Source: Sulfurimonas sp. HSL3-2
GTDB lineage: Bacteria > Campylobacterota > Campylobacteria > Campylobacterales > Sulfurimonadaceae
NCBI RefSeq assembly: GCF_039645965.1
Contig: NZ_CP147917.1
Span: 868,001-932,000 of the forward strand
Reading direction: 5' to 3'
Length of the DNA: 64,000 nt
Both the position numbers and the translations under genes were made by a program. Shown here in pieces: positions 8,156 to 22,773 of this stretch (its first letter is position 1; each line of letters begins with the position of its first letter). Below the pieces are notes generated by a model. It was not told where the DNA came from and did not search any database. It saw only the letters and a program-made list of their open reading frames with translations.

Positions 8156-8656
8156 ATGCAAAGTGCTTTTAAATGGCTGACTCCGATCGTAACAGTTGGA
8201 GTCGCTATTTTTATTGTTATATTTTTGATAGATATAAATCCGTCTGAAGATATGCAAGCGGTAGATGAATTAAAAATAAAAAATACAAAAATAAAAGATG
8301 AGAAGCCTGAGACTTTATGGTTAAATCATCTCTCCAAAAGTGAGCAGGGTGGATACTTCTATCCTGTAAACGAGATTTTTGTCGATCTGGACCTTTCTCA
8401 ACAGATCGTTTTAACAAAAATTTATCAACTGAATGCATCTATCTCTGACCCGTATCAATTTTTTTGTTTGCAAGAAGTATTGAAACAGCATAAAATGCGA
8501 TATTATCTTAAAAAAGATCATTTAGATACCAAACTTCTTATTTACTCTGAGCAAAAGAGTAAATTAGATTCATTAGTAAAAGCTTTACAAACTTATGATA
8601 TAAATGCAAAAATTTTGCCTTATAAAGAGGAGAAACAATGGAAAAAAGTACAGTAA
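8156..8656 (+). CDS. Small single-pass membrane protein of the rpsA-serA operon
   Basis: I do not recognise a named family. The 166-residue protein has one N-terminal membrane anchor (about residues 8-27, ITVGVAIFIVIFLID-like) and a soluble part predicted to face the periplasm. The last 60 residues read like a small alpha/beta domain with paired hydrophobic strands (residues about 115-155), loosely like SPOR or ACT-sized folds, but no motif decides this. It starts one base after the rpsA stop and overlaps the serA start by 19 bases, so it belongs to one transcript. A gene of similar size lies between rpsA and serA in C. jejuni as I remember it, so it appears to be a conserved gene without a known function. 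Confidence 0.7.
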   Translation: MQSAFKWLTPIVTVGVAIFIVIFLIDINPSEDMQAVDELKIKNTKIKDEKPETLWLNHLSKSEQGGYFYPVNEIFVDLDLSQQIVLTKIYQLNASISDPYQFFCLQEVLKQHKMRYYLKKDHLDTKLLIYSEQKSKLDSLVKALQTYDINAKILPYKEEKQWKKVQ

Positions 8657-10224
8657 TAGTTTGTGATCATATTCATGAAGCTGGACTTAAAATGCTTCAG
8701 GATGATGAAAACATAAACTATGTTTTTGCTGCAGATGTTGATAAAACAGAACTTTTAAATATGTTAGTAGATGCTGATGTAGCTATTACACGTAGTTCTA
8801 CTGATGTTGATGAAAAATTTATAGCACATGCTAAAAATATGAAAGCTATCGTTCGTGCAGGTGTGGGTGTTGATAATGTCGATATCGAAGGCTGTTCTAA
8901 AGAGGGTATCATCGTTATGAACGTACCAACAGCAAACACTATTGCTGCAGTCGAACTTACAATGGCTCATATGCTTTCATGTATGAGAATGTTCCCATAC
9001 TCTCATGACCACCTTAAAAATCAACGTATCTGGAAACGTGAAAAATGGTACGGTTATGAACTAAAAGGCAAAAAACTAGGTGTTATCGGTTTTGGTAATA
9101 TCGGTTCACGCGTTGCAAAACGTGCGAAAGCTTTTGAGATGGATATCGTTGCATACGATCCATATATTCATCCGTCAAAAGTAACTGATCTTGATATGGT
9201 ATATACTGAAAACTTTGATGATATCCTAGCTTGTGACGTTATCACGATCCATACTCCGAAAAACAGTGAGACTATCGATATTATTAATGAAAAAGAGATC
9301 GCTAAGATGAAAGACGGCGTAGTTTTAGTGAACTGTGCTCGTGGTGGTCTTTACAATGAGGAAGCTCTTTATAACGGTTTAAAATCTGGTAAGATCCGTT
9401 TTGCAGGTATAGACGTTTTCGTTAAAGAACCGGCTACAAGCAATCCTTTACTAGACTTAGATAATATTATCGTTTCTCCTCACTTAGGTGCAAATACGTA
9501 TGAATCTCAGTACAACATCGGTGTACAAGCGGCTGATCAGGCTATTCAAGCTGCAAAAGGTATGGCATATCCAAATGCATTCAATCTTCCTATAGATGAA
9601 AGCAAAATACCTGCATTTGTAAAACCGTATATGGAGATGGGACAAAAGTTAGGTTTCCTTGCTTCTCAAAAGAACCGTGCTCCGATCGTTTCTATCAAAG
9701 TAAGCGGACAGGGTGCTATAGCAGAGTTTGTTGATTCTCTTTCAACATTCGTTACAGTTGGAGCTTTAGCTGAAAACAGCGGAGATACTATCAACTATGT
9801 AAATGCTGATTTTATTGCAAAAGAGAAAGGTATTAAAGTCGAGACTGAGGCTCTAGCTGACTCATCTGTGTATAAAAACCTTATCACCGTAAAACTAACG
9901 ACAGATAAAACAGTAACGACTATCAGAGCGACAATATTCGACGATAATATCCAACGTATCGTAGAGATCGACGGATTTAGTGTTGATGTTGCTTTAAAAG
10001 GCAACTTGATATTCTTTAAAAATACCGACGTTCCGGGAGTGATCGGAAGTGTCGGTACGATACTAGCAAGCCATAACGTAAATATCTCGGATTTCCGTCT
10101 TGGAAGAAACTCTAAAGCAGAGGCACTTGCAGTGATCATCGTTGACAGCGCTGTCAGCGATACAGTACTAAAAGAACTTAGCAACCTTGAAGCTTGCATC
10201 AGCGTAAGTTACGCAAGAATATAA
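8638..10224 (+). CDS. serA: D-3-phosphoglycerate dehydrogenase
   Basis: This 528-residue enzyme oxidises 3-phosphoglycerate with NAD as the first step of serine synthesis. The N-terminal substrate domain is interrupted by a Rossmann domain with LGVIGFGNIGSRVAKR near residue 148, followed by NCARGGLYNEEAL (catalytic Arg), DVFVKEPA (Glu) and SPHLGANTYES (catalytic His). The C-terminus has the extra ASB domain and a final ACT domain (FKNTDVPGVIGSVGTIL), so it is the long, serine-regulated type. AGAGGAGAAACAATG gives a strong ribosome-binding site within the preceding gene. An intrinsic terminator follows. Confidence 0.97.
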   Translation: MEKSTVIVCDHIHEAGLKMLQDDENINYVFAADVDKTELLNMLVDADVAITRSSTDVDEKFIAHAKNMKAIVRAGVGVDNVDIEGCSKEGIIVMNVPTANTIAAVELTMAHMLSCMRMFPYSHDHLKNQRIWKREKWYGYELKGKKLGVIGFGNIGSRVAKRAKAFEMDIVAYDPYIHPSKVTDLDMVYTENFDDILACDVITIHTPKNSETIDIINEKEIAKMKDGVVLVNCARGGLYNEEALYNGLKSGKIRFAGIDVFVKEPATSNPLLDLDNIIVSPHLGANTYESQYNIGVQAADQAIQAAKGMAYPNAFNLPIDESKIPAFVKPYMEMGQKLGFLASQKNRAPIVSIKVSGQGAIAEFVDSLSTFVTVGALAENSGDTINYVNADFIAKEKGIKVETEALADSSVYKNLITVKLTTDKTVTTIRATIFDDNIQRIVEIDGFSVDVALKGNLIFFKNTDVPGVIGSVGTILASHNVNISDFRLGRNSKAEALAVIIVDSAVSDTVLKELSNLEACISVSYARI

Positions 10225-12411: not shown

Positions 12412-14124
12412 TTATAGAGGATCTGTTATAGATACAGCTTTTTTCTCATGGAAATGGAAATGTTTTTCCAAGTCTGCATTGTATAGCAGTATCGGTACAA
12501 CCATAAGTGATGCGATCACAGCTGCGATAGTCCCGAATATCAAAGAGACTCCAAGTCCACCGAATACCGCATCTCCTGCTAGAAGTGTCGAAGCAAGGAT
12601 GATCGCCGTTGCCGTAAGGAAAATCGGTTTTGCACGTGTTGCAGTTGCGTAAGCGATGGCATCGGCTTTATGCATACCTTTGTCATGCATAAGAGATTTT
12701 GTAAAATCGATAAGCAGCAGCGAGTTACGAGAGCTGATACCGATAAGAGCGATAAATCCGATAAGAGAAGTCGCTGTTAAAAAGAAAGTATCCGTCGTAA
12801 ATATATCCATTATCCAGTGACCGACGATAACACCTATGATAGAAAGGAAACTTCCGATCAGGATGATGCCGCTGAGTGTATAGCTTTTGTAATACACGAC
12901 CATTAACAGGAAAATAAGTACTAACGCTGCTATAAAAGCACCGCCGAGATCTCTAAAAGTATCAAGCGTCACTTTCATTTCGCCATCCCATTTCAGTTCG
13001 TAGACTTTACCGCTTTTTTTGTCTTTGAGTTCCAGATCAAACAGTCCAGTCTTTGTTATATCATAATCGTTGCTTAACTCTTTTAGTATCTGGGCTCTAG
13101 CATCGATAAGAGGATAGACCTGAGAGACCATATCAGTTTCGGCCATCACATTGGTCATCTGGTGCAGGTCTTTACTCATTATAGTCGGATTCGATTTTGT
13201 TGATACGATACTGACCATCTCTGTTATAGGAACCATCATGCCGAATTTATTCATAAGTTTCAAGCTTGAAAGTTTCGCTCTTAAAGCATCCAGATCTTTT
13301 GTCGTAAACCTTTTTGAGCTGTCGCTGAGTGATAAAAATATAGGTATCTGATCATTATATTTCGGAGAGTTCTTAACAGCTATATCCATCCCTTCAAATG
13401 CTAGGTACATGATATCGTTGATCTGTTTTATACTGACACCCGAACGTGCAGCTTTTTCAGGGTTGACTTTGATATCAAAAGTATCATAGATAGCATCTTC
13501 CATAGTATCGACGTCAACGAGACCTTTGGTCTTTTTAAATATACCATCGACTTTATCAGCTAACTCTCTGATCCCTTTAGCATCGTTTCCGTATATCTCT
13601 GCAACGATTGCTGCAAGTGTCGGCGGACCGGCAGGAGGCTCGACAAAAGAGATATCGCTCTCTTTTACGATAGATTGACAGCTTTTTAATATGACAGGAC
13701 GAAGGCGTTGTACCATCATATATGACGGTTCTTCTCTTTCATGTTTTTTTGTCAGATTGACAACTAGTTCTGCGACATTTTCAGAGTTCTTAAACTGTGA
13801 GCCTTTGATCAGTCCTGCAAAGTCAAGCGGTGATCCCATGCCTAAAAACACTTCTAGATCCGTTACTTCTTTCTCTTTTTGTATAATAGATGCAACACAG
13901 TTCGTCACGCTGTTCGTCTGCTCGATCGAGCTTCCCTGAGGGAGTTTTACATAGATGTTAAATGTATCATTGTTTTTACCCGGCAGCATCTTCGCTAAAA
14001 CGAGCTCCGTAGGTATCATCATAATCGATAAAAAAAGTGCAGCAATGGTACCGAGAATAATGTATTTTCTTTGCTTCTGACTTTGAATACCTTTTAATAC
14101 AGCTTGTTCAAATTTTGCAAACAT
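12412..14124 (-). CDS. RND efflux permease, C-terminal half (TM7-TM12)
   Basis: This 570-residue protein matches the second half of AcrB/CzcA-type RND permeases. It begins with the TM7 region (KQRKYIILGTIAALFLSIMM), then a periplasmic porter/docking loop of about 340 residues (LPGKNNDTFNIYVKLPQGSS onwards), and TM8-TM12 near the end, including IALIGISSRNSLLLIDF and the closing FGTIAAVIASLMVVPILL. A whole RND permease has about 1,040 residues in one chain; here the other half is the gene just upstream. The stop and start overlap as TAATG and GAGGAG stands 8 bases before this ATG, so the split is a designed gene boundary, not a sequencing frameshift. The two chains presumably assemble as one protomer. 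Substrate not predictable. Confidence 0.9.
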   Translation of the reverse strand: MFAKFEQAVLKGIQSQKQRKYIILGTIAALFLSIMMIPTELVLAKMLPGKNNDTFNIYVKLPQGSSIEQTNSVTNCVASIIQKEKEVTDLEVFLGMGSPLDFAGLIKGSQFKNSENVAELVVNLTKKHEREEPSYMMVQRLRPVILKSCQSIVKESDISFVEPPAGPPTLAAIVAEIYGNDAKGIRELADKVDGIFKKTKGLVDVDTMEDAIYDTFDIKVNPEKAARSGVSIKQINDIMYLAFEGMDIAVKNSPKYNDQIPIFLSLSDSSKRFTTKDLDALRAKLSSLKLMNKFGMMVPITEMVSIVSTKSNPTIMSKDLHQMTNVMAETDMVSQVYPLIDARAQILKELSNDYDITKTGLFDLELKDKKSGKVYELKWDGEMKVTLDTFRDLGGAFIAALVLIFLLMVVYYKSYTLSGIILIGSFLSIIGVIVGHWIMDIFTTDTFFLTATSLIGFIALIGISSRNSLLLIDFTKSLMHDKGMHKADAIAYATATRAKPIFLTATAIILASTLLAGDAVFGGLGVSLIFGTIAAVIASLMVVPILLYNADLEKHFHFHEKKAVSITDPL

Positions 14125-15710
14125 TATTTGTGCTCCTCATTATGCTTAGGTCTTTTGAGTATTCTTACTGCTAAGTAAGGGGTAAATATATAAGCTACAA
14201 AAAGTGAAGCTATCAGTGCGACAGGGACATTTGCAGGGATCGGTTTCATAAACTGACCCATCATCTGTCCGACAAAAGCCATCGGTATCATCGTCATAAT
14301 GATCGCCAGTGTCGCTATGTTCGTCGGTGCACCGATCTCATCCGTTGCTTCGATCATCAACTCGTCTTTATCTTTATGCGCCGAATCGGCAGAATGATAA
14401 TGACGGTGAATGTTCTCGATCACGATGATGGCTGCATCGACTAAAAGTCCAAGGCTCAGCAGGAATGCAAAGAGCGTGATCCTGTTGATCGTCTGACCGC
14501 TTAGATAAGCTACAAACAGTGTAATAGCGAGGATCGCAGGGACCGTAAATGTGACAATAAGCGATTCTCTCCATCCAAGGACGAAAATCAGCAAAATAGC
14601 GATGATAATGATAGAGAGGATCAAGTGAAATACCAGTTCATTAACGGCGTCGTTGGCACGTTCGCCGTCATTTCTCGTGATCACGTAGTTGATGCCGTTT
14701 TTAGCAAGCATATCTTTGTACTTGCTAAGCTCCTCTTTTACCGCATCTGCTATCACGACGGCATTCGTACCTTGAAGTTTCGATATTGTCAGCGTCACTT
14801 GGTTTTGAAGTTTACTAAACTTATGGTCTGCACTTTGGATACTGATCTGTGCTGATTTGAAGTTTTGATAGTTATATCCGTCCGTGACATCAGCGACTTG
14901 TTTTAGATAGATAGGCGATCCCATATAGTCTGCGACGATGATATTGTTAATATCTTCTATGCTTTGAACTGCATTTTTGACACCGAATATGACAATCTGA
15001 TTGTCTTTTGTTCTGTTTTTAATGTTGGGTACATTGTATGAGAGTGATTGAACCGCTTTTGTTATCTGACCTAAAGAAAGATTATAACCGGCTAACCTAT
15101 TTATATCTACTTCTATGTTGTATTGGTGCTTATGACCGCCTTTTAAGTCTGTAACCGCGACGTTTGGAAGACCGTTTATATAGTGCTGCATAGTTTTGAC
15201 ATTATCATAAAGATCTGTTTCGGTCATATTTTTATCATTACTGTAAAATGCAACGGAGACGATAGGGATATCGACATCTATATCGAGCGGTTTTATAACA
15301 GGATTCATAGCACCTTTAGGGAACATATTTGAGTTTTGCATGATCTTGTCGTAGACTTTTAGATTTGAGTCTTCTTTGTTCTCACCGATGAAAAAGGCAG
15401 CATTTACGATACCGACGTTATCCATAGCTGTGCCGTAGATATGCTCGACACCTTTTACCTCTTTAAGTTTTCTCTCCAGAGGTTTTACTATGACACGTTC
15501 TACTTCAGCAGCAGTAGCACCCGGAAGTGCGACGATGACGGTCGAACCGCTGACGACCATTTGAGGATTCTCTTCACGCGGCATGACCTCTAATGAGATA
15601 TACCCAAGTGCAAGCAGAAATATACCCAGTACCATAGTAAGAGGATTTTGTATAAATGTTTTAGCTAGTTTACCTGCTACGTCTTTAGGTTCGTATGGCT
15701 TATGTTTCAT
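14124..15710 (-). CDS. RND efflux permease, N-terminal half (TM1-TM6)
   Basis: This 528-residue protein is the first half of an RND permease. TM1 is at about residues 25-43 (TMVLGIFLLALGYISLEVMP), followed by the porter loop with GATAAEVERVIVKPLE, and TM2-TM6. TM4 carries GLLVDAAIIVIENI; AcrB has two adjacent Asp here, this protein has Asp-Ala, a pattern known from HME/CusA-like and other RND pumps. The chain ends just after TM6 (LAVRILKRPKHNEEHK), the point where the two internal repeats of an RND protein meet. It starts 9 bases after the membrane-fusion gene, with an SD-like TAAGGTAGGA. Confidence 0.92.
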   Translation of the reverse strand: MKHKPYEPKDVAGKLAKTFIQNPLTMVLGIFLLALGYISLEVMPREENPQMVVSGSTVIVALPGATAAEVERVIVKPLERKLKEVKGVEHIYGTAMDNVGIVNAAFFIGENKEDSNLKVYDKIMQNSNMFPKGAMNPVIKPLDIDVDIPIVSVAFYSNDKNMTETDLYDNVKTMQHYINGLPNVAVTDLKGGHKHQYNIEVDINRLAGYNLSLGQITKAVQSLSYNVPNIKNRTKDNQIVIFGVKNAVQSIEDINNIIVADYMGSPIYLKQVADVTDGYNYQNFKSAQISIQSADHKFSKLQNQVTLTISKLQGTNAVVIADAVKEELSKYKDMLAKNGINYVITRNDGERANDAVNELVFHLILSIIIIAILLIFVLGWRESLIVTFTVPAILAITLFVAYLSGQTINRITLFAFLLSLGLLVDAAIIVIENIHRHYHSADSAHKDKDELMIEATDEIGAPTNIATLAIIMTMIPMAFVGQMMGQFMKPIPANVPVALIASLFVAYIFTPYLAVRILKRPKHNEEHK

Positions 15711-20046: not shown

Positions 20047-22773
20047 ATGTCAAAGACAGTAACGATAATAGATACTTTTGGATTCTTTTTTAGAAGTTTT
20101 TATGCACTTCCGCAACATCTCAGTAACAAGGACGGTTTTCCGACCGGACTTTTGACAGGATTTGTCAACTTCATCTCATCGCTTCAAAAAGAACACAGCA
20201 GCGATTATCTTGTGTTTGCTATCGACTCTAAGGGCAATACGTTTAGAAACGAGATAGACCCCAACTATAAAGCAAACCGCACCGCACCTCCTCATGAACT
20301 GACACTGCAGCTTCCAGTGGCAATAGAGTGGATAGACAAGATGGGTTTTCGTACTCTTGGCATGGTCGGATATGAAGCCGATGATATGATTGCTACCGTT
20401 GCAAAGTTGGCTGTTGAAAAAGGCTATAACGTAAAAATAGTCTCGCATGACAAAGATCTTTATCAGTTGATAGACGATGACAAGGTCGTGCTTGTAGATG
20501 CTATCAAAAGAAAGACGATAAACGAAGATGAGTGTATGCAGAAATATGGTGTCACTCCCAAGCAGTTTATCGATTTTCAGTCACTGCTTGGTGACAGCGC
20601 AGATAATGTCCCTGGTGTAAAAGGGATAGGCAAGGTGACGGCGCAAAAACTTATCTCTACTTACGGAAGTTTGGAAAACATCTATGAAAATATAGATACG
20701 GTCACTCCTGCAGGCGTCCAAAAGAAACTGATCGAGAACAAAGAGAACGCTTTTATGTCTAAGCAGCTTGTCACACTTAAAAGAGATGTATTTGACGAGT
20801 TTGACTTTGATGAGTATGAGATGCATTATGAGAACCCTTTTGTCCCGATCTATGATGAACTCGTACATTATGAGATGAACGGGATACTCCGAGCCCTTCA
20901 TGCAAAAGGAGTGATGCAGGAACAAAAGCCAAGCAGTACTCAAAACGGTGTCGAGGTAGTCTACGAGACTATCAAAGAGCCAAAGTTGGAGGATTTCAAG
21001 ACGACTCTGATAACGGAGAAAAAAGCGCTAGAAAGTGTATTGTCAGCTCTTACCGGTAATGAGATCGTAGCTTTTGATACGGAGACAACAGGGCTTGATC
21101 CTTATAAAGACACGCTTGTCGGATTCAGTTTTTGTTTTGATGAGAAACAGGCCTTTTATGTGCCGCTTGCCCATTCATACCTTGGAGCACCGGAGCAGAT
21201 AGGTTCAGATGATGCAAAAGAGGCTATCAAAAAGATCTTTACATGTAAGGTAGTAGGGCACAACATCAAGTTCGATCTTCACTTTGTGACAAAGTATCTG
21301 GGAATGGACCTTGATATCTACGGCGACAGTATGATCCTTGCATGGCTTCATAACCCTGAGGGAAAACTCTCACTTGATCATCTCTCATCAACGATGCTAA
21401 ATCATACTATGATCTCTTTTAAAGACACGGTCAAAAAAGGTGAGACTTTTGCTTCTGTAGAACTTGACGATGCCTGTAAATATGCAGCAGAAGATGCGCT
21501 CATCACGCTTCGTCTGTACAACCAGCTAGTCCAAAAGTTTAAACACAACTCTACAGAGTACCTTTTAGATGAAGCAGCCAACGTTGAGTACCCGTTTATC
21601 TCTACGCTTCTCAGAATGGAGCAAAGCGGTATAGCCGTTGACAGCGGATTTTTATCCGAATTTTTAGAAGAGGTGAAGACAAGACTTACCTCGCTTACAA
21701 AAGAGATATACGCTATAGCGGGATGCGAATTCAACCTTAACTCTCCGCAGCAGCTTGGAGGTATCTTGTTTGAAACACTTGCTCTTCCTTCTGGTAAAAA
21801 GACAAAGACAGGCTACTCGACTGATGAGAAGGTGTTAAGCTCTCTTGTCGATGAGCATGAGATCATAAGACATATACTTGATTATAGAGAGGTTCATAAG
21901 CTCTATTCTACATATATCGAGCCGCTTTTAAAACTTTCACAAGAGAGCGATGACAGCCGTGTGCATACCTCTTTTATACAAACAGGAACGGCAACGGGAC
22001 GTCTGAGCTCAAAAAATCCAAATCTTCAAAATATCCCTGTTAGAAGTGACCTTGGTGTCAAGATACGCAGAGGTTTCGTGGCACCAAAAGGCAAAAAGCT
22101 TGTAGGAATAGACTACTCGCAGATAGAGCTTAGACTTCTTGCACACTTTAGTGAAGACAAAGTACTCGTCCATGCGTTTAAAGAGGATAAAGATATCCAC
22201 CTTCAGACAGCTATAGTACTTTTTGGAGAGGACGAAGCACCGAGTAAGAGAAATATCGCAAAGACCGTAAACTTCGGACTTCTGTACGGGATGGGGCAGA
22301 AGAAGCTCTCAGATACTCTTGGTATAACTACAAAAGAGGCAAAAGATATCATCACGACCTATTTTGAAAAGTTTCATAACGTCAAAGAGTATTTTAATTA
22401 TATCATCGAAGACAGCAAAGAGAAGGGATATGTAGAGACATTGCTTCGCCGCAGACGCTATTTTGACTATGCAAAAGCGACGCCGATGCTAAAAGCCGCA
22501 TTTGAGAGAGAAAGTGTAAATACTAAGTTTCAAGGCAGCGTGTCTGACCTTATAAAACTTTCTATGAACAAAATAGACAGGATCATAAAAGAGGAAGGGT
22601 TAAAAGCGAAGATGCTTTTACAGATCCACGATGAACTGATATTCGAGGTAGATGAGGATGTTGCACAGGAACTTGGAGAAAGATTTCAGAAGATCATGGA
22701 AGATATTTATGAGCTCAATATCCCTCTCAAAGCATCCTTAAATATAGGTGATAACTGGGGAGAACTTAAATAA
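20047..22773 (+). CDS. polA: DNA polymerase I
   Basis: This 908-residue protein has all three classic parts. The 5'-3' exonuclease/flap domain is at about 1-290 (DTFGFFFRSFYALP, GYEADDMIATVA, LLGDSADNVPGVKGIGKVTA). The 3'-5' exonuclease domain at about 320-510 keeps the catalytic AFDTETTGLDP and VGHNIKFDLHF, so proofreading is probably active. The polymerase A domain has TGRLSSKNPNLQNIPVR, VGIDYSQIELRLLAH, RNIAKTVNFGLLYGM and QIHDELIFEV. It acts in Okazaki-fragment processing and repair. The preceding gap of 205 bases contains only a weak hairpin. Confidence 0.97.
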   Translation: MSKTVTIIDTFGFFFRSFYALPQHLSNKDGFPTGLLTGFVNFISSLQKEHSSDYLVFAIDSKGNTFRNEIDPNYKANRTAPPHELTLQLPVAIEWIDKMGFRTLGMVGYEADDMIATVAKLAVEKGYNVKIVSHDKDLYQLIDDDKVVLVDAIKRKTINEDECMQKYGVTPKQFIDFQSLLGDSADNVPGVKGIGKVTAQKLISTYGSLENIYENIDTVTPAGVQKKLIENKENAFMSKQLVTLKRDVFDEFDFDEYEMHYENPFVPIYDELVHYEMNGILRALHAKGVMQEQKPSSTQNGVEVVYETIKEPKLEDFKTTLITEKKALESVLSALTGNEIVAFDTETTGLDPYKDTLVGFSFCFDEKQAFYVPLAHSYLGAPEQIGSDDAKEAIKKIFTCKVVGHNIKFDLHFVTKYLGMDLDIYGDSMILAWLHNPEGKLSLDHLSSTMLNHTMISFKDTVKKGETFASVELDDACKYAAEDALITLRLYNQLVQKFKHNSTEYLLDEAANVEYPFISTLLRMEQSGIAVDSGFLSEFLEEVKTRLTSLTKEIYAIAGCEFNLNSPQQLGGILFETLALPSGKKTKTGYSTDEKVLSSLVDEHEIIRHILDYREVHKLYSTYIEPLLKLSQESDDSRVHTSFIQTGTATGRLSSKNPNLQNIPVRSDLGVKIRRGFVAPKGKKLVGIDYSQIELRLLAHFSEDKVLVHAFKEDKDIHLQTAIVLFGEDEAPSKRNIAKTVNFGLLYGMGQKKLSDTLGITTKEAKDIITTYFEKFHNVKEYFNYIIEDSKEKGYVETLLRRRRYFDYAKATPMLKAAFERESVNTKFQGSVSDLIKLSMNKIDRIIKEEGLKAKMLLQIHDELIFEVDEDVAQELGERFQKIMEDIYELNIPLKASLNIGDNWGELK
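21239..21248. repeat. TTACATGTAA palindrome, copy 2
   Basis: Exact copy inside polA, reading Thr-Cys-Lys in frame. Confidence 0.8.

Follow-up and report, generated by a model that had tools for sequence, protein, structure and literature searches.

A permease gene in two open reading frames

The window, the whole 64,000-nucleotide stretch of the Sulfurimonas sp. HSL3-2 genome analysed here, carries an efflux operon read in one direction, from a TolC-type gene through an adaptor gene to the N-half and then the C-half of an RND permease (Table 1). The initial annotation had described two open reading frames that meet at a TAATG junction with the motif GAGGAG 8 bases upstream, and we confirmed this arrangement at the coordinates given in Table 1. 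The window junction sequence is AATGAGGAGCACAAATAATG.

Table 1. Genes and junction features of the split efflux pump (positions in the window)
Feature	Coordinates	Strand	Content and evidence
RND permease N-half, 528 aa	14124..15710	minus	TM1, first porter/docking domains, TM2-TM6; PF00873 positions 2-498 (3.6e-80); AcrB-type model alignment
RND permease C-half, 570 aa	12412..14124	minus	I-alpha, TM7, second porter/docking domains, TM8-TM12 (I-alpha and TM7 as predicted by the model); PF00873 positions 525-1016 (5.5e-45)
TAATG stop/start overlap	14122..14126	minus	TAA 14126-14124 and ATG 14124-14122; base 14124 common to both
GAGGAG Shine-Dalgarno-like motif	14133..14138	minus	8 bases before the C-half ATG
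Periplasmic adaptor (membrane fusion protein), 262 aa	15720..16508	minus	HlyD_D23 2.4e-29; TIGR01730 RND_mfp 129.8 bits (cut-off 94.9)
TolC-type outer membrane efflux protein, 456 aa	16508..17878	minus	OEP PF02321 1.8e-31; TTG start as listed, then ATG

By their coverage of ACR_tran (PF00873, 1021 positions), the two halves jointly span one complete permease, end to end. ACR_tran and a weak MMPL match were their only Pfam matches (E of at most 0.001), and the SecD/SecF families were absent. The best NCBIfam RND subfamily model, NF033617, gave 230.5 and 103.5 bits for the separate halves against a cut-off of 1250, which is set for full-length chains and is hardly reachable by halves. The locus has in common with HAE/AcrB-type pumps ACR_tran matches over both repeats, the AcrB fold (in the models described below), relay residues, and an operon with an adaptor and an outer membrane channel. 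It lacks the single 12-TM polypeptide of that class; because there are two open reading frames in place of one chain, we regard it as a split variant and not as a canonical HAE/AcrB-type member. Besides this pump, the HSL3-2 genome (2.24 Mb, one contig) encodes a further six AcrB-type permeases, each of them a single chain 1015-1042 aa long; two weak matches fall in frames that are 814 and 531 aa long.

We note that a phosphoglycerate dehydrogenase-like gene, named from a reading of its protein, is found close to the pump (window positions 8638-10224), and that serA lies directly upstream of the pump on a Sulfurovum mangrovi plasmid (L221). The recurrence of such a gene beside the pump is possibly an old gene neighbourhood.

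Position of the cut and predicted fold of each half

We built AlphaFold models from alignments of the window halves with their relatives (mean pLDDT 80.1 for the N-half and 78.6 for the C-half). In the N-half model, TM2-TM6 occupy residues 348-517. The model aligns with AcrB-type chains from residue 1 to about 499-511 at Z of about 24-26; the best score, 25.7, was obtained with MdtF (rmsd 6.0, 458 aligned), with AcrB rows tied. Residue 1 of the C-half model corresponds to AcrB residue 523 by alignment (Z about 23-26), and the best score was obtained with MexY (Z 25.6, rmsd 4.5, 493 aligned), AcrB rows again being tied. Identity to AcrB over the aligned model was about 23% for the N-half and 17% for the C-half.

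The C-half model begins with a short helix (residues 2-14), followed by TM7 at 16-36. We take this helix to be I-alpha, which lies between TM6 and TM7 in AcrB. On the models, the cut coincides with the border between the internal repeats: TM6 stands on one side of it and I-alpha on the other. The C-half is predicted to open with I-alpha and then TM7. The initial annotation had the N-half end just after TM6 and the C-half begin with TM7, at the repeat border. The end of the N-half and the repeat border agree with our models, but the C-half starts with I-alpha, not TM7, as judged from the alignment to AcrB residue 523 and the model.

I-alpha is an amphipathic helix; its name appears in PMC4359379, where a passage cites Eda, Yoneyama and Nakae (2003) for a MexB that was artificially divided at the N-terminal end of I-alpha, and whose halves were functional together. 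The natural split and the engineered MexB cut fall at the same place.

Presumed proton relay residues

The alignment equivalents of the AcrB relay residues, which we take to be Asp407, Asp408, Lys940, Arg971 and Thr978, are Asp425 and Ala426 in the N-half and Arg466, Arg497 and Thr504 in the C-half. Asp425 in TM4 was present in all 110 split rows. Arg466 (TM10), Arg497 and Thr504 (both TM11) were each found in 108 of the 108 split rows with a residue at the position, the other 2 of 110 being gapped. The exception was position 426, where AcrB has its second TM4 Asp: of the 110 split rows, 91 have Ala there, 18 have Asp and 1 has Ser. Ala also occupies this position in 9 of the 51 homologues that are single chains. 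Since the second TM4 Asp is mostly Ala, the presumed relay is not exactly that of AcrB.

These residues suggest a presumed proton relay that is shared between two chains. With the TM4 Asp on one chain and the TM10 and TM11 Arg and Thr on the other, neither half should transport alone.

Distribution among relatives

We searched 100 relatives' genomes with the N-half, and all had some RND match. Of the strong places, 95 were taken and, with the window, made 96 loci that were read for gene architecture. A C-half match lay downstream on the same strand in 95 of the 96, and the last locus stops at a contig edge. Nine of the 96 are single frames (L121-L124, L126, L128-L131). These single-chain Campylobacterales homologues are 44-49% identical to the window N-half and 39-43% identical to the C-half.

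Scanning named genomes yielded 80 loci, some of them on the same contigs as in the first search (e.g., L054/L140 and L112/L158). The split was present in named Sulfurimonas, Sulfuricurvum, Sulfurovum, Arcobacter, Malaciobacter halophilus, Nitratiruptor and Sulfurospirillum. Split named loci come from the families Sulfurimonadaceae, Sulfurovaceae, Arcobacteraceae, Nitratiruptoraceae and Sulfurospirillaceae. The search of related genomes for the same split, which the initial annotation had proposed as a check, thus found it across many Campylobacterales families. Across 298 genomes of the class, the N-half profile matched 104 places at 650 bits or more. The frame is at most 604 aa long at 96 of them and 1126-1181 aa long at the other 8. 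Among the loci of the named-genome scan, nearly all from other phyla were single-chain, the exceptions showing an early stop or frameshift (L203, L212) or running off their contigs (L173, L199, L214). In RefSeq, N-half and C-half each have a gene annotation of their own on a plasmid of Sulfurovum mangrovi ST1-3 and on one of Sulfuricurvum kujiense DSM 16994, under a generic name.

Several individual loci deserve mention. In L125/L167 and L134 the N-half is interrupted or the frame is odd, and L117, which is split, has a TAA in frame ahead of the ATG. A Lys/Glu-rich N-terminal stretch ahead of TM1 is found in L121, L122, L126, L128, L130 and L131, and the window N-half is without it. The Sulfuricurvum kujiense plasmid pSULKU01 (NC_014754.1) carries a divergent split copy (L222) behind a TetR-type regulator, with a MarR-type one adjoining and no adaptor gene directly upstream. 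On one contig, two equally scoring copies of the N-half are separated by 7 kb (G301:C73:13924-15501 and 21149-22726), probably a tandem duplication.

Number and direction of events

We computed a FastTree tree of 168 rows, 163 of them different, leaving out L115, L117, L125, L134, L136, L167, L173, L199, L203 and L214, and also L056, L118, L152 and L159, which were shorter than 900 aa. The 110 split Campylobacterota rows formed one clade with support 100, beside nine single-chain Campylobacterales rows and within single-chain rows of other phyla. In an IQ-TREE analysis of 43 chosen rows, all 22 split rows again formed one clade (100/100), which grouped with six single-chain Campylobacterales rows (99/100); that those six form one sister group was supported at 76/87 only. 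L127 is a very long branch whose exact position is unsure. No re-fusion was seen inside the split clade in these trees.

The initial annotation considered split RND pumps uncommon compared with single-chain ones. As far as we have seen this holds: the paralogues in the same genome are single chains, as are 42 of the 43 homologues on the 168-row tree from outside Campylobacterota, and the one exception resembles a frameshift. This exception, L212, comes from a non-Campylobacterota MAG (about 2142-2200). We considered it as a second independent fission and rejected this, because its C frame already encodes the I-alpha homology upstream of the putative ATG; its apparent split is probably a recent frameshift in the MAG. 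We excluded L212 from the split counts (with it, the tree table has 111 split rows and 2 changes), and L203, which has an early stop, was dropped.

All other RND chains in our sets are single, L212 apart, and the N-half and the C-half each match their counterpart within single chains; the direction of change is therefore fission. The trees point to one ancient gene fission, in an ancestor of much of Campylobacterales.

Inheritance of the two halves

Separate chains would permit exchange of halves, and the initial annotation had raised this, together with unequal stoichiometry, as a consequence of the split. Several genomes have two split operons (e.g., G008, G026, G044 and G066), so partners for such mixing between paralogous pumps exist. 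We compared half-trees from 103 N/C pairs. Their distances correlate at 0.92, and at support 0.95 they have 38 bipartitions in common (of 51 in the N tree and 57 in the C tree). Nearest neighbours were the same in 69 of the 103 pairs, and the mismatches were mostly by close ranks.

Two N-tree bipartitions were in conflict, and every listed conflict involves one locus, L120. Its N-half resembles one paralogue group to about fragment residue 240 and from there on the copy of its own genus. Because this switch lies inside the N-half, at a locus at a contig end, it indicates recombination or mis-assembly within the gene and not a swap of halves. Besides L120, larger neighbour differences were seen in five rows (L069, L075, L077, L127 and L160).

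Among 97 C-half matches of at least 358 bits in the 100 genomes there were no orphan halves; each has an N-half as its neighbour, belongs to a fused frame or, in G027, is at the edge of its contig. G061 and G045 contain short C-half pieces. Given the agreement of the half-trees and the C-half downstream in 95 of 96 loci, half-exchange found no support, and we consider it very unlikely that the halves are semi-independent, whether by mixing between pumps or by an unequal assembly ratio.

Junctions and translation of the C-half

We examined 108 distinct junctions, leaving out L115, L117, L125, L134, L136, L167, L173, L199, L203, L214, L212, L118 and duplicates. The C-half start was taken as the codon nearest the expected beginning of the BLAST match, and a few starts may be some codons off. 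Relative to the N-half stop, the start lies at -1 in 46 junctions and at -4 in 31 (together 77 of 108), and positions from -17 to +9 occur. The C-half starts with ATG at 98 junctions, with GTG at 7 and with TTG at 3. A Shine-Dalgarno-like motif precedes the C-half start at 92 of the 108 junctions; the corresponding figures for internal ATGs are 126 of 1977 (6.4%) in frame and 152 of 2225 out of frame.

The kept start codon, the Shine-Dalgarno-like motif and the 1- or 4-base overlaps suggest that the C-half is translated by re-initiation, at about an equal ratio to the N-half. Re-initiation is less sure at the few junctions where the start lies up to 9 bases past the stop. The unequal stoichiometry that had been suggested is not supported, as the overlaps at most junctions fit coupled translation at about 1:1.

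Alternatively, recoding by a programmed frameshift or by read-through of the stop codon could fuse the two frames into a full-length chain. Start and stop share one frame at 9 of the 108 junctions, and at L117; at some of these (L149, L154, L156 and L166) the stop codon directly precedes the ATG, and read-through there would give a full-length protein. However, the relative frame of the two open reading frames varies (the three phases have 85, 14 and 9 of the 108 junctions), the C frame in the window is open for only 4 codons before the ATG (574 versus 570 aa), and the conserved element is instead a start codon with a Shine-Dalgarno-like motif. No slippery heptamer was seen at the window junction. 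We regard recoding as highly improbable.

We note that the four junctions just named, L113 and L117 have both frames the same and a lone stop codon directly before the C-half ATG, so that a single codon separates the split from the fused form.

Against four relatives, dN was 0.020-0.064 for the N-half and 0.053-0.102 for the C-half, and dS was 1.28 to 3.0, which is near or past saturation. With dN far below dS, these sequence comparisons indicate purifying selection on both halves. That the split is a sequencing error or a decaying pseudogene has next to no probability: although the distant L212 is apparently split, with I-alpha homology before the putative ATG as in a recent frameshift, the same split occurs in about a hundred genomes, single-contig ones among them, both halves are under purifying selection, and the ribosome-binding site is conserved. 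For the window locus, relatives with the same split refute this explanation. Neither a sequencing error hiding one continuous frame nor a recent mutation of this strain, the two outcomes that the initial annotation had set against itself, can account for a split that relatives carry, and its view of a natural split at the repeat border, not error or decay, is borne out by the shared split, the low dN and the conserved Shine-Dalgarno motif.

Proposed mechanism

We consider it highly probable that the locus arose by one fission of an AcrB-type permease gene and that its paired halves, at about 1:1, make up one protomer. An AcrB-type (HAE-like) RND gene in a Campylobacterales ancestor would have undergone a single fission between TM6 and I-alpha. 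The overlapping open reading frames of one operon would be translated into two chains. The C-half would use a ribosome-binding site of its own and would probably be read by ribosomes coming directly off the N-half, a coupling that would give about equal amounts. N-half and C-half would then pair in the membrane, most likely as one AcrB-like protomer in a ratio of about 1:1. The pump would consist of three of these pairs together with the adaptor and the TolC-type channel; we infer the trimer and the transport likewise. Each half alone would be inactive, as the putative relay residues are divided between the chains.

A further proposal, which we think unlikely, is that selection, and not neutral drift, has kept the split, because putting the protomer together from separate repeats would in itself serve as a point of control, at insertion, pairing or turnover. 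Selection for two chains, if true, would explain roughly a hundred split genes without re-fusion, some of them one stop codon from the fused form.

Comparison with known systems and significance

The split pump resembles the HAE-type permeases AcrB and MexB (PF00873) in the folds of its halves, domain order, TM4 Asp, and TM11 Arg and Thr, and its operon resembles theirs in having an adaptor and a TolC-type channel. AcrB and MexB are single chains of about 1000-1050 aa, whereas the window pump has two chains. It also differs from AcrB in having Arg for Lys in TM10, and in the second TM4 Asp, mostly Ala in the split rows. Its nearest relatives, the single-chain Campylobacterales homologues (L121-L124, L126, L128-L131), have the same operon partners but are one frame of 1077-1171 aa, several with the extra Lys/Glu-rich N-terminus.

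SecD and SecF are members of the RND superfamily and are two proteins in many bacteria. They are like the window pump in this two-protein make-up but differ as a protein-export factor of other Pfam families. To our knowledge, they have no adaptor or TolC partner. The part of PMC8277102 on these proteins describes a fused SecD/SecF in Thermus thermophilus, and the same source describes MdtB-MdtC as two different RND chains in a heterotrimer. Each of the MdtB-MdtC chains is full-length (1025-1040-position models) and the window chains are half-length, so the pump is not of the MdtBC type. The divided MexB of Eda, Yoneyama and Nakae (2003), as cited in the relevant passage of PMC4359379, is engineered and of another subfamily, whereas the window pair is natural and a putative pump. 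We found no description of a natural AcrB-type RND split in the open-access literature; this is weak evidence of novelty, as few subscription journals were covered.

Most RND permeases are single chains, and they are thought to stem from a tandem duplication inside an ancestral gene, according to a section of PMC2891726. The split that we describe is the reverse of this duplication step. It has persisted in much of an order, and it sits at the joint at which MexB was cut artificially and, as cited, stayed functional. Annotators should bear in mind that AcrB-type genes labelled 'truncated' in these sulfur bacteria belong to complete pumps. The pair offers a natural system in which to study the need for a covalent link between the repeats, the folding and insertion of each repeat, and the contacts that hold them together, with the nearest single-chain relatives as ready controls.
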